Source: a virus. From it: 23,066 nt of DNA. The notes below the pieces were generated by a model, which saw nothing but the letters and a program-made list of their open reading frames with translations, did no database searches and was not told where the DNA came from. Position numbers and translations under genes: made by a program. Shown piece by piece: positions 9,301 to 12,154 of the stretch. Where the stretch lies: the IMG/VR virus record IMGVR_UViG_3300044941_000466, positions 1 to 23,066 of that record; one strand, written 5' to 3'. The stretch's first letter is position 1, and each line of letters starts with the position of its first letter.

Positions 9301-9578
9301 TCGGCTTTGGCATTCTCGGCGGCCATCATGACCGAACCGACGGTGAACTCCTTGGCCCAGGTGAGCGCGCTCTTGATGGCCTCGGCCAGCAGGTTCCCCG
9401 CGGTGGCGCCTTTCACCATGGCGGCAGTCATTCCGTCGATTCCCTGCGCCGCGCCCCGGGCGGTCTTGACCGCCGAAGCCTCCATGCTGGACAGGCTCGC
9501 GTTGACGCTCTTGATGGACGCATTGGCCCGGTTGGTGTCAACTTCAACGACGAGTTCGAGCCTGTTATCGGCGGCCAT
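6378..9578 (-). CDS. Tail tape measure protein
   Basis: This 1066-aa protein is long, helical and Ala/Gln/Glu-rich, placed right after the tail chaperone genes as expected. It has an N-terminal coiled-coil part, hydrophobic segments near residues 288-308 and 322-338, a long charged coiled coil about 400-690, a Gly-rich stretch about 740-800, and a small-residue hydrophobic stretch with GGPLGAAIGAGVGAVAG towards the C-terminus. Tape measures set tail length and help DNA cross the membrane. By the usual rule of about 0.15 nm per residue the tail would be near 160 nm. The start at 9578 (MAADNRLELVVEV) has no Shine-Dalgarno sequence in front and lies next to the plus-strand DUF6883 gene. The role is very likely. 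Confidence 0.93.
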   Translation of the reverse strand: MAADNRLELVVEVDTNRANASIKSVNASLSSMEASAVKTARGAAQGIDGMTAAMVKGATAGNLLAEAIKSALTWAKEFTVGSVMMAAENAKAEASLKALANAHGVGAAAAAKQVSAIEEIGFEYTEAAHAVQRLIVADLELAKAPGLAKLAKDAAAVQNIASGEALESIVMAIESGASRGLRTLGLFVDFQKESQIAQLQLGRALTETEERQLRYNAVIREGAKIQGAHAAASQTVEGQLGALRREFNNLREDIGAKFQDDFKALIGNLRGLVGWLRENTDLLKKFGEVALWVSGILATYALADKIMALAKSIAALQLASINPYALLVVGAGFAIYSQWKDTQEQLQARFDEMQRKALREDLLSGRTNVDALRKQGMNDDQIRELVMGKQWLPGGQSFEYEGPKLTVKTSPEPDLDALKHAAETRKRQLEVERESARALEESRRRGLVGFARDVAEVQEQIRKWTTFVDERGNEQRIALTRKAWENVIGELRERLANWQKEVQETNRKNLAEYLAAEEEAARRRLEIESHLFSQRLAYTEEIAKRNLDHLEQMLGIEETRAGITRDAQLRALEATNAQTLEQKVAVEQHKATIEVEYLTRVHEIRMRLFDLETSRMVIEEEAQLKRLGYRADEIQARIAELTAQRDEIRRFQQEATDAAIQGARETVAIRQAQLVRDHNQRIFESFKRQAEGIFDALLTKSQSIWSAIGNSLKTALLTAIKDVVTSRVAAMLMQLFTGTRVSLAGGGASGGGTLGRLGGILGVGAVPVFSGGSGGGPIPGGAAGGWGTPPFVPSSGGGWSGLLGGWKDFLGFGGGVQYAPGKAVTWEAATMGQKLSALGRSNAALLGGATLALMGLQRGGVSGLAMTTAGGALIGFKYGGPLGAAIGAGVGAVAGLVRLFVKGAQEKAREKIKATYGVDIREKNILTEIVNIAKQGFGGNLDMAIRSQQVRDLVELYALSTGQSTSGLPATVRPVSLLQQGGSLFQSSPGGLALDRIGGGAPSSAAGPTVINITVPGAKEFFEKETVRVVVENPRAVQSAAMTATKASAGRREMTGLQLSPGLILS

Positions 9579-9612
9579 GCGGACGTACGGGAATTGCTAC
9601 GCTGAGCACTGG

Positions 9613-9942
9613 ATGAGGTTACCGAACGGGGAGCGGGCCATTGTCGATATTCAGAAGCTGACGGCCTACTGCCTAAACCTTCAACACACGCGAGGGCGTC
9701 ACAAGGCGCGCGTCTTCGCCTCGCTTGGCATCACGGAAGTAGACGCCGAAGCGTTGCGCGGGGCATTGATCGAAGCAGCCCGGAACGGTGATGCATTGCC
9801 CGGTCTGCCGACCCCTTATGGGCGTCGCTACACCATTGATTTCGAGTTTCAGTGGGGTGAACGAAAGGTGTTCATCCGCAGCGCCTGGATCGTTCGCAAC
9901 GGCGAGGACTTGCCCAGGCTGACGACTTGTTATGTACTGTAG
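9613..9942 (+). CDS. DUF6883-type protein (unknown function)
   Basis: This 109-aa protein starts MRLPNGERAIVDIQKL and continues with YCLN, then GRHKARVFASLGI, the pattern I know from DUF6883 proteins, and ends in a strand pair DFEFQWGERK ... RSAWIVRNGEDLPRLTTCYV. No biochemical function is known to me. The start at 9613 is chosen because it matches the family's N-terminus; an in-frame ATG at 9577 would add 12 residues and overlap the tape-measure start codon. It is followed after 13 bases by a DUF4926 gene on the same strand, a pairing typical of this family. It lies on the opposite strand to the tail operon, precisely between chaperone GT and tape measure, so it is probably accessory cargo such as a toxin-antitoxin or defence module. 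Confidence 0.75.
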   Translation: MRLPNGERAIVDIQKLTAYCLNLQHTRGRHKARVFASLGITEVDAEALRGALIEAARNGDALPGLPTPYGRRYTIDFEFQWGERKVFIRSAWIVRNGEDLPRLTTCYVL

Positions 9943-9955
9943 GGAGAGGCAGAGT

Positions 9956-10174
9956 ATGCCGGAAATCAATCTGCATTCCGTTGTTGCCCTTCTGGAGGAC
10001 CTCCCGGAACACGGCCTGATCCGCGGCCAGGTCGGGACCGTTGTGGAGAGTTGGGCGCCCGGAGTGTATGAAGTCGAGTTCAGTGATGATCAAGGGCGCA
10101 CATACGCGATGGTTGCCCTGAAGGCGGAACAGCTCATGCGCCTTCATCACGAACCGGTTCATCAGGCAGCTTAG
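9956..10174 (+). CDS. DUF4926-type small protein (unknown function)
   Basis: This 72-aa protein has the DUF4926 look: LLEDLPEHGLIRGQVGTVVE, then YEVEFSDDQGRTYA and a VALKAEQL end, a small SH3-like beta barrel. GGGAGAGG lies about 8 bases before the ATG at 9956; an upstream ATG at 9932 would overlap the DUF6883 gene and is less likely. The function is unknown. As the partner of DUF6883 it could be an antitoxin or immunity protein, which is inference. Its TAG stop (10172-10174) overlaps the TAA stop of the convergent tail chaperone GT frame (10171-10173), so the pair is fitted into the tail operon with no spare bases. Confidence 0.78.
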   Translation: MPEINLHSVVALLEDLPEHGLIRGQVGTVVESWAPGVYEVEFSDDQGRTYAMVALKAEQLMRLHHEPVHQAA

Positions 10175-11102
10175 AGCCGACTCGCGTCAAGCCTTTCCCT
10201 GTCGAGCGTTTCCTGCTCCTCTTCCAGCACCGCCACCGCCTGGAACTCATCGGCCCGGATCTCGTCGAGGCCGATTCGGACGCCCAGCTTCAGCGCCGCC
10301 CGAAGGTCGAGCGCGCGCCGCAACAGCAGACCCGCCTCGGAGGATTGCGCGGCATCCAGTCTGTCCAGCGGGCAGTGGTCGCAACGGCCGCCATCGTCGG
10401 GTGCGTCCGGACAAAGGCCCGGGTCGCAGAGTTCCTCTCGGCGCAGCGCCCAATGGATCAGAAACCGCAGAGAGGGCTGCTCCGGCCACTCCCCGGGCGT
10501 CAGTTTGGGTCGCAGGACTCCTGGAATGCGCCATCAAGGGCGTCGATGGCGGCCTTGACCGCGACGGCCTGGTGGATGATCGGGACATCGCCGGCGTAGC
10601 CCTCGGAAGACTCGATGAGCTTCTTGAAGAGCGCGGCCGCCGCCCCAAGGTTGATAATCAACTCCTGGCGGTTGTAGGGCAGATCGAGCACCCTCGCGAA
10701 GCCCCGCCGGTACTCGAACACGTCTTTCGCCGAAGGCATGCGCAGTACGTGGCTCACCGTGCCGCCCAAGACGCGCATCGTCACACGAAAGCCGTCGCCC
10801 ACCTGGACGACGTCATCCACCTCAGCCTGGCTCAACTGTTCGATGATGCGGCTGGCCTCAAAGGCATCGACCTCAGGCGCGTTCTCTTCGGCCACGCGGA
10901 TCTTGGCGAGCAGCGCGGCATCGGCTTCCGCCGAGTCAGGGATCGTCGTTTCGGACACCCCGCGTCCCAGTTGCTTCACGATGACCTTACGCTTCTTTTG
11001 GCGTTCGATCCACTCCTCATCGGTCGGGAAACGCAAGCGCACGGTCTTGAGGCCCTCCGGCGTGCGGAGGTTCATGGCGATGGTTTGGTTCGCGTCAAAC
11101 AT
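10171..11102 (-). CDS. Tail assembly chaperone GT fusion made by -1 frameshift
   Basis: A -1 slip on C CCA AAC at 10503-10509, directly before the G stop codon, joins the 200-aa G frame to a 110-aa open extension ending at TAA 10173-10171, giving about 310 residues. The extension contains no ATG at all, so it cannot easily be a free gene. It carries four cysteines (about residues 226, 231, 241 and 244; CDPGLCP and CDHCP), possibly a zinc site, then Leu/Arg-rich helices. In lambda, gpG and gpGT bind the tape measure and recruit tail tube protein, and their ratio is set by the same kind of slip. The gene order tube-G-GT-tape measure is identical here apart from the inserted DUF6883/DUF4926 pair. 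Confidence 0.85.
10500..11102 (-). CDS. Tail assembly chaperone, G-like
   Basis: The 200-aa product of normal termination at TGA 10502-10500. The start is placed at 11102 (MFDANQTIAMNL) because GAGAGGA stands six bases upstream, while the ATG at 11141 lies within the tail tube gene. The protein has a beta-rich N-terminus (LKTVRLRFPTDEEWIERQK) and a helical C-terminus (AAAALFKKLIESSEG, then AVKAAIDALDGAF). It lies between tail tube and tape measure, the constant site of tail chaperones, and ends at a perfect slippery heptamer. The role is to keep the tape measure soluble during tail assembly; it is not expected in the finished virion. Confidence 0.88.
   Translation of the reverse strand: MFDANQTIAMNLRTPEGLKTVRLRFPTDEEWIERQKKRKVIVKQLGRGVSETTIPDSAEADAALLAKIRVAEENAPEVDAFEASRIIEQLSQAEVDDVVQVGDGFRVTMRVLGGTVSHVLRMPSAKDVFEYRRGFARVLDLPYNRQELIINLGAAAALFKKLIESSEGYAGDVPIIHQAVAVKAAIDALDGAFQESCDPN
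10503..10509 (-). promoter_or_regulatory. Programmed -1 ribosomal frameshift site, C CCA AAC
   Basis: On the minus strand the frame reads GAC CCA AAC TGA. The heptamer C CCA AAC fits the X XXY YYZ rule, so both tRNAs can re-pair on CCC AAA and the ribosome goes on with CTG ACG CCC. The stop codon directly after the slip site is also typical. No downstream stimulatory hairpin is clear by eye. Confidence 0.85.
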
Positions 11103-11113
11103 GCAAGTCCTCT

Positions 11114-12154
11114 CTACTGGCAGATCCCGTCCACCTGGCACTTGGCCACCGCCGAGACGATGCCGTTGGTCTCATCCCACATGGGCAGGCATTCGACTGA
11201 GACGGTAACAATGCCGTCCGTCTCGCCGACTTCGGCGGTCGCGAAGGAGACTCTGTGCCAGGTGAGTTCCAGTGAGTTGTTCGAGTCGTAGGTGAGCGAG
11301 ATCACGGCCGTGCCCGTGGACTGGCTCTTGAGCTTCGCGAGTTCGGTTGAGCCGTTTTCGAAGCGGGCGACGAACCGGAGGGCGCCCTGGCGGTTGCCAA
11401 ACTCCAACCTGCCGCGGATGGCGCCGCTTGCGCCATCGCCGGGCGTCTGGAAGCCCGAACCAGGGAAGAAACCGCCGTCGAGGCGGACGTTGTTCTTCCA
11501 AGACGTTTCGAGCGAGACGATGTTCTTGTTCGAAACGTAGTTGACGCCGTTGATCGTCAGCGCGAGCGACGCCGAGGGAAGCAGCTTTTCGAGCGTCGCC
11601 GCTGGCATGGAGATGCCGGAGGGTTCGACATACTTGCCCGAGCCCACAAACTCGACCGTGATCTTCGAGTTTGCGCGGCCGGGCCCCGAGCCGATCGAGA
11701 TGGTCCAGCCTTCGACCACGCAGCCCACCGCCATCCGGTCCACCACGACGCCCGCGCCCGGGCGGATCTGCTCGACGAAGCTGAAGTACGGCAGTTCGGC
11801 CGCGTCGCCCGAGGCAGGGAAGAGCGGCGTGCAAGTGTAGGTGAAGTTCGGAGTCGTGCCCGACTTCACCACCTTGCCAAGGCCAAACGCCATGGCCCAC
11901 GCGCCGATCTCGGCGCCCAGGTACTTTTCGAGCGTTCCGCTCACGTCCCAGGAGGTCTGGAACGACTGCGTCGCAAACTCGTGACCCTTGCCGAACTCCT
12001 CGGCGTCGTTCTCGGTGTTGAGCTTCGGATTGGCGAGCGCGGCATTCAGCTTGCGCAACTGCCACATCTGGACGCCGGTGTTGGCGGTCGAGATGTCGGC
12101 CTGCTTCTGCTTACCGAAGCAGATCTGGATTTCCTGCATCCGCGCGACGGACAT
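11114..12154 (-). CDS. Major tail tube protein
   Basis: This 346-aa beta-rich protein begins with short N-terminal segments (MQEIQICFGKQKQ) and continues through typical tube-protein pieces such as EFGKGHEFATQSFQTSW and LGAEIGAWAMAFGLG, then a repeated beta domain. It lies just before the tail chaperone genes, as tube proteins do in long-tailed phages. Six-membered rings stacked around the tape measure would form the tail. GGGAGGT lies eight bases before the ATG at 12154, one of the better ribosome binding sites in the operon, as expected for an abundant product. No sheath gene follows, so a flexible non-contractile tail is most likely. It is longer than lambda gpV (246 aa), perhaps because of an extra C-terminal domain. 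Confidence 0.85.
   Translation of the reverse strand: MSVARMQEIQICFGKQKQADISTANTGVQMWQLRKLNAALANPKLNTENDAEEFGKGHEFATQSFQTSWDVSGTLEKYLGAEIGAWAMAFGLGKVVKSGTTPNFTYTCTPLFPASGDAAELPYFSFVEQIRPGAGVVVDRMAVGCVVEGWTISIGSGPGRANSKITVEFVGSGKYVEPSGISMPAATLEKLLPSASLALTINGVNYVSNKNIVSLETSWKNNVRLDGGFFPGSGFQTPGDGASGAIRGRLEFGNRQGALRFVARFENGSTELAKLKSQSTGTAVISLTYDSNNSLELTWHRVSFATAEVGETDGIVTVSVECLPMWDETNGIVSAVAKCQVDGICQ

Follow-up and report, generated by a model that had tools for sequence, protein, structure and literature searches.

An antisense DUF6883-DUF4926 gene pair in a phage tail operon as a probable toxin-antitoxin module at a cargo hotspot

The gene pair and its surroundings

The DNA analysed here (the window) is the entire IMG/VR virus record IMGVR_UViG_3300044941_000466, with a length of 23,066 bases. 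Its minus strand carries the structural genes, namely the terminase, a lambda-type portal, the tail tube, the G/GT tail-assembly chaperones, the tape-measure protein (TMP) and the tail tip. Between the T part of the chaperone and the TMP gene, at what is called here the T-TMP junction, two small genes lie on the opposite strand, encoding a DUF6883 and a DUF4926 protein (Table 1). The initial annotation had recognised patterns of both families in the letters of the sequence, and Pfam confirms them. As it had also described, the two genes are separated by 13 bases and the second has its own ribosome binding site: the stop codon of the DUF6883 gene lies at 9940-9942, the ATG of the DUF4926 gene at 9956, with GGGAGAGG on its 5' side. 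The overlap reported for the stop codons is likewise found, the TAG of the DUF4926 gene (10172-10174) overlapping the TAA of T (complement of 10171-10173).

The 5' boundary requires a correction. As had been noted, the first ATG of the DUF6883 gene (9577) overlaps the TMP start; the two form a CATG palindrome. This ATG was nevertheless rejected as the start of the gene. The real start is almost certainly the ATG at 9613, since this codon is conserved in 6/6 aligned phages, since the interval from one ATG to the other contains a +1 indel in sister phage L006 and since residues 1-9 counted from 9577 are disordered in the AlphaFold2 (AF2) model. The stretch between both ATGs is also poorly conserved among sister phages. 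The DUF6883-DUF4926 pair is present at the same position in six sister contigs, with a ratio of nonsynonymous to synonymous changes (dN/dS) of mostly 0.05-0.25 for DUF6883 and about 0.1-0.3 for DUF4926. Because of this shared position and the low dN/dS, its presence in the window is not due to chance.

Table 1. Features at and around the T-TMP junction of the window
Feature	Position	Strand	Evidence and remarks
TMP, 1066 amino acids	6378..9578	-	Position and homology across sister phages; downstream flank of the cargo site
DUF6883 protein, 109 amino acids, proposed toxin	9613..9942	+	PF21814, E 5e-28; start conserved; AF2 model
DUF4926 protein, 72 amino acids, proposed antitoxin/immunity protein	9956..10174	+	PF16277, E 8e-28; AF2 model
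T-TMP junction, cargo hotspot	9579..10170	.	Holds 592 bases of cargo in the window
T part of the G/GT tail-assembly chaperone	10171..10509	-	Sequence; reached by -1 frameshift
G tail-assembly chaperone	10500..11141	-	Position, frameshift motif, homologues in 80 contigs
Tail tube protein	11114..12154	-	PF18906, E 7.5e-12; phrog_290; phylogenetic marker

The slippery heptamer CCCAAAC at 10503-10509 (minus strand), immediately ahead of the G stop, accounts for the GT fusion, and the TMP has no match above the Pfam cut-off. Elsewhere in the window, a second pair resembling a toxin-antitoxin (TA) system is located on the plus strand at 692-1109, with a HicB-like gene (692-913) and a HicA gene (906-1109). 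This pair is convergent with the tail-tip gene, which ends at 1117, and is antisense to the structural operon.

Pairing of the two families and toxin-like contexts of DUF6883

Homologous loci were searched with DUF6883 queries alone, which makes the search unbiased towards pairing. As the analysis covered the best 80 of 334 genome matches, the sample is skewed to close relatives. In all 101 DUF6883 matches, located in 99 loci, the next gene downstream on the same strand is DUF4926, in most cases 20-45 bases past the end of the DUF6883 domain, with a weak DUF4926 match in L099 and L100. The loci span many phyla, plasmids and viral contigs, and include homologues on plasmids and chromosomes outside phage contexts. 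Two loci (L048 and L059) count twice, their DUF6883 being interrupted by a stop or frameshift beside an intact DUF4926, which may be a sequencing error. L030 contains a second, weak DUF6883 copy. Among the INPHARED phages, tblastn found no relative. L009 was rejected as a relative, its weak match lying within a tail-tip-like protein, and the apparent DUF6883 fusions of L010 and L087 were left uncounted, as their long open reading frames look like read-through from upstream non-coding frames.

Two phyla were analysed separately. In the Cyanobacteria (a draw of 146 genomes, the phylum of L041), 70 of the 75 full-length DUF6883 genes have DUF4926 downstream. DUF4926 occurs there without a recognisable DUF6883 in 43/129 cases versus 5/75 for full-length DUF6883 on its own (Fisher p 6e-6). 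In the Acidobacteria (149 genomes, the phylum of L023), inspection of the tables places a partner DUF4926 beside all but one full-length DUF6883; the asymmetry between solo genes has the same direction as in the Cyanobacteria and is not significant alone (p 0.36). Three full-length DUF6883 genes of the Acidobacteria contain internal stops, each next to an intact DUF4926. Among the DUF6883 copies of both phyla, G001:C5, G289, G229 and G302 are examples of this state. The pairing is ordered and near-obligate. Homologues not occurring as neighbours had been named beforehand as evidence against a two-gene system, and this is not the pattern observed (neighbours in 99/99 loci and 70/75 cyanobacterial cases).

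Besides its stand-alone form, DUF6883 is found at the C-terminus of delivered proteins. It is fused to a Mu-F minor capsid protein (PF04233 followed by PF21814) in two viral contigs (L100 and L101) and in a plasmid prophage of Anoxybacillus; the L099 protein is built alike but lacks a Pfam Mu-F match. The gene after this MuF-DUF6883 fusion matches DUF4926 above the cut-off in L099 and L101 and weakly in L100, while DUF4926 is not detectable in the gene at this position in the Anoxybacillus prophage. A structure search of BFVD with the DUF6883 model returned three significant viral matches, two of which are minor capsid proteins (TM 0.75 and 0.84). DUF6883 also forms the C-terminus of a Rhizobium filamentous haemagglutinin. 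In Subdoligranulum, it is present as an orphan cassette behind a linker (DSQSPAGDNGGNASAE...) that is repeated ahead of neighbouring modules; the gene immediately after this cassette is DUF4926, and an Imm74 immunity gene is adjacent.

DUF6883 hence occupies positions typical of toxin domains, in MuF proteins, a haemagglutinin and a polymorphic-toxin cassette. These contexts have the architecture of MuF and other polymorphic toxins, as described in PMC5576092 and PMC3482391. At the level of the family, DUF6883 is an exchangeable C-terminal domain on several delivery proteins with an immunity gene downstream; the DUF6883 of the window is a stand-alone protein of 109 amino acids to which no N-terminal trafficking domain is fused. 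As a separate observation, positions 1890-3900 of L015 (Subdoligranulum plasmid OY725847) form an unannotated polymorphic-toxin array, with the repeated linker and several orphan toxin/immunity cassettes including DUF6883-DUF4926.

The AF2 models are of high confidence, with pLDDT values of 91.3 for DUF6883 and 93.5 for DUF4926. DUF6883 is modelled as three helices followed by a four-stranded sheet. According to Zhang et al. (2012, PMC3482391), the BECR fold is defined by N-terminal helices and then a four-stranded meander, and the order of elements in the DUF6883 model agrees with this definition. The predicted fold is therefore compatible with BECR nucleases, and DUF6883 may have RNase activity. 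Invariant or nearly invariant residues (K27, Y31, H37, H42, K43 and W104, numbered from 9577) are candidates for active-site residues. DUF4926, with 72 residues, is modelled as an SH3-like barrel, for which Foldseek gives weak matches to SH3 and similar domains. NCBIfam holds no model for either protein, and the PHROGs database gives just a weak match to DUF4926.

Cargo and stacked modules at the T-TMP junction

Sister phages were gathered with the tail tube and G proteins, yielding 71 distinct contigs with both flanks of the junction. The junction is closed in 30 of these, where the overlap of T and TMP measures 11-20 bases; the other 41 hold cargo of 267-3,891 bases. The initial description of this junction as almost always closed does not apply to this phage family. 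TA genes were identified in 21/41 cargos and are antisense to the tail operon in 21/21. Eight of these are DUF6883-DUF4926, ten HicA-HicB (recognised through PF15919/PF05534, the HicA match being weak) and three HigB-HigA (HigB as Gp49, PF05973, and HigA as Xre). The other 20 cargos hold unrelated genes, including those for a candidate defence protein (PADLOC PDC-S02 in L235, E 2e-83), an M48 peptidase, zinc-ribbon proteins and beta-barrel-like proteins.

In the tree of the tube protein, closed, TA and other junctions occur in scattered places, and well-supported branches force at least 10, 9 and 8 changes, respectively. The T-TMP junction is a cargo hotspot, since closely related phages differ in whether this locus is empty and in which unrelated genes fill it. 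In three contigs (L132, L140 and L235), the 5' end of the TMP gene is duplicated around the cargo, the duplication in L235 being the first 20 bases of the gene on both sides. This duplication is a scar left by insertion at the TMP start. The 3.6-3.9 kb cargo of L132 and L140 encodes a 680-amino-acid secreted repeat-like protein and a beta-barrel-like protein.

Regarding the host, a relative with an 84% identical tube protein was found inside a 167-kb contig of an Acidobacteria metagenome-assembled genome (MAG; the genome of L023). In this relative, the T-TMP junction is occupied by other antisense cargo (1.8 kb). The contig also encodes a large serine recombinase at 91-92.6 kb, as well as genes which we take to be rpoB and rpoC. 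Among the best 80 of 334 genome matches, the closest chromosomal DUF6883 proteins (60%) belong to Bryobacteraceae MAGs. Based on this integrated relative and the Bryobacteraceae proteins, temperate phages of Acidobacteriota are the likely carriers of the pair, and the virus of the window would presumably be one of them.

Eight junctions are stacks of more than one module. Four (L129, L131, L163 and L176) contain HicA-HicB followed by HigA without HigB, two (L161 and L174) HigB-HigA followed by DUF4926 without DUF6883, one (L145) HicA-HicB with both an orphan HigA and an orphan DUF4926, and one (L096) DUF6883-DUF4926 followed by a truncated HicB. The latter (cargo-sense 720-1022) is an orphan with the N-terminal domain, having lost the C-terminal DNA-binding ribbon-helix-helix part. 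In every stack, the toxin-bearing module is proximal to TMP and the others are reduced to the antitoxin; no toxin is present without its antitoxin. The antitoxin that was retained is homologous to the older module from within its first codons onwards. Contiguous alignments that span the joins indicate about three independent events, with the antitoxin retained in each. In this respect, DUF4926 behaves like the known antitoxins HigA and HicB.

Orphan HigA and orphan DUF4926 are under purifying selection. For orphan HigA (L129, L163 and L176), dN/dS is 0.12-0.14 (p 1e-4 to 1e-10), and the comparison of orphan DUF4926 between L161 and L174 gives 43 synonymous and 28 nonsynonymous changes (p 2e-10). 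In the most likely scenario, an incoming module enters next to TMP and the toxin of the older module is displaced. The antitoxin of that older module would remain and plausibly shield the phage or lysogen from kin with the old toxin, as anti-addiction or counter-abortive infection. We judge the chances to be about even that the junction is such an antitoxin-stacking locus, at which displaced modules keep an antitoxin selected for the heritable immunity it gives against TA modules in kin, and that DUF6883-DUF4926 takes part in it. It is less probable, though still to be considered, that the orphans are neutral leftovers of recombination without an immunity role, the pair itself being a TA module in this case as well. 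The position of the joins within the first codons of the antitoxin would fit such leftovers, as would L131, in which ~1.9 kb is inserted in the orphan HigA (cargo-sense 1096-2986) with ends overlapping by ~9 bases, as from transposition. However, the excess of synonymous changes in both orphan families speaks against neutrality.

Interpretation and comparison with known systems

Very probably, the DUF6883-DUF4926 pair is a module of the toxin-antitoxin (toxin-immunity) kind that temperate soil phages carry as lysogeny cargo. A toxin-antitoxin or immunity role had been suggested initially, next to superinfection exclusion, and it is strongly supported by the near-obligate pairing, the toxin-domain contexts and the presence of HicAB and HigBA at the same site and on the same strand. 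DUF6883 would be the toxin and DUF4926 the antitoxin or immunity protein. In the prophage, transcription of the pair would run counter to the late tail operon. DUF6883 would then act as an intracellular toxin, most likely a nucleic acid-cleaving enzyme of BECR-like topology, and DUF4926 would neutralise it through direct binding. Upon failure of DUF4926, DUF6883 would poison the cell, by which the prophage is stabilised or a rival infection aborted, and the pair could in this way serve in competition between phages.

Several observations weigh against this interpretation or narrow it. Foldseek found nothing significant in the PDB for either model (best for DUF6883, E 0.016), and a profile comparison of DUF6883 with Gp49/HigB toxins gave no match; in view of these two results, it is the topology that suggests the BECR assignment. 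Pfam yields only DUF4926 for the second protein and no DNA-binding domain, a common though not universal feature of type II antitoxins, and autoregulation in the type II style is therefore not evident. The promoter and terminator scan returned no site and no sigma-70-like promoter, though the promoters of the host may differ. Some cyanobacterial orphan DUF4926 genes adjoin ParE/RelE-like or HicB genes, for example in L103 (1167-1782, minus strand), where DUF4926 directly follows a ParE/RelE-like toxin gene. Judging from this gene order, DUF4926 may be a partner of other toxins as well. Since the stacks trace back to about three joins, the independent sample behind the constant retention of the antitoxin is small, and the interrupted HigA of L131 indicates that orphans are dispensable at least sometimes.

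A joint role of both proteins in superinfection exclusion or anti-phage defence, as a unit of which neither member is toxic by itself, is improbable. PDC-S02 at the same site in sister phage L235 is a candidate single-gene defence protein, and defence genes are frequent in phage cargo hotspots (PMC9122126). However, PADLOC has no match for either protein, DUF4926 is kept alone under selection, and DUF6883 serves as a C-terminal toxin-like domain in MuF proteins and a haemagglutinin. The reverse polarity, with DUF4926 as toxin and DUF6883 as antitoxin, is very improbable. Both proteins are small and of unassigned function, and toxins with an SH3-like (CcdB/MazF) fold exist. However, it is DUF4926 that often occurs solo and DUF6883 that almost never does, and DUF4926 is retained without its partner in stacks where known toxins were lost. 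Moreover, DUF6883 rather than DUF4926 is the C-terminal domain of delivered proteins, and the copies with internal stops are those of DUF6883, beside an intact DUF4926. Despite its location within the tail gene cluster, the pair can hardly be a structural or tail-assembly accessory of the operon, as it lies on the opposite strand, as 30/71 closely related phages lack it with T and TMP overlapping, and as homologues occur on plasmids and chromosomes away from phages.

If the toxin-antitoxin assignment is true, it gives a function to two Pfam families that are unnamed yet widespread, ranging from Cyanobacteria to Acidobacteria, and stand-alone TA pairs become linked to the MuF toxins delivered by phages. 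The hotspot also opens a debated question to testing, namely whether TA modules serve phages in competing with one another and whether an orphan antitoxin is a functioning immunity or a relic. With its layered succession, the locus offers about seventy natural variants as a ready experiment. In the literature searched, DUF6883 is nowhere named and DUF4926 is named in a single paper, without a function. Separately, TA systems, MuF toxins, phage hotspots and orphan antitoxins are all known already (PMC5576092, PMC9122126 and PMC12548467). As far as our tools reach, new within these sources are the TA assignment of the pair and its polarity, the TA-dominated T-TMP hotspot and the selected antitoxin stacks.

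Like the type II TA systems HicAB and HigBA/RelE, the pair consists of two small, adjacent and co-directional genes, is near-obligate and mobile, and occurs on plasmids and prophages. As in hicAB and higBA, the toxin gene comes first, and both of these systems use the identical phage site and strand. The antitoxin can moreover be found solo and the toxin hardly ever, as seen in the cyanobacterial counts and the phage stacks. The families themselves are unrelated to these systems, with no significant sequence or PDB match, and DUF4926 differs as a bare SH3-like barrel. With the MuF polymorphic toxins, as far as covered by the available part of Jamet et al. (2017, PMC5576092), which does not name a DUF6883 domain, the family shares the C-terminal position on MuF and the small gene directly downstream (DUF4926 where recognisable). 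However, the DUF6883 of the window is free-standing between T and TMP and not fused to a packaged protein. The predicted order of helices and meander would fit the BECR-fold RNase toxins of Zhang et al., but neither the structure search nor the profile comparison matched DUF6883 significantly to any known BECR protein.

At the level of the locus, Rousset et al. (2022, PMC9122126) described hotspots of phages and satellites, such as P2/P4, which lie next to cos in E. coli phages and contain defence and TA-like genes. The T-TMP junction resembles them as a fixed phage locus with non-essential lysogenic cargo that turns over fast and includes TA-like systems. It differs in lying inside the tail operon, in its probable Acidobacteria hosts, in the dominance of TA modules and in its stacked orphan antitoxins. 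For anti-addiction modules (PMC12548467), antitoxins derived from TA systems have been proposed to neutralise the toxins of competing elements, a role that may also apply to the orphans described here. The latter are distinguished by following one another in layers at a single locus of the phage, and by signs that selection acts on them.
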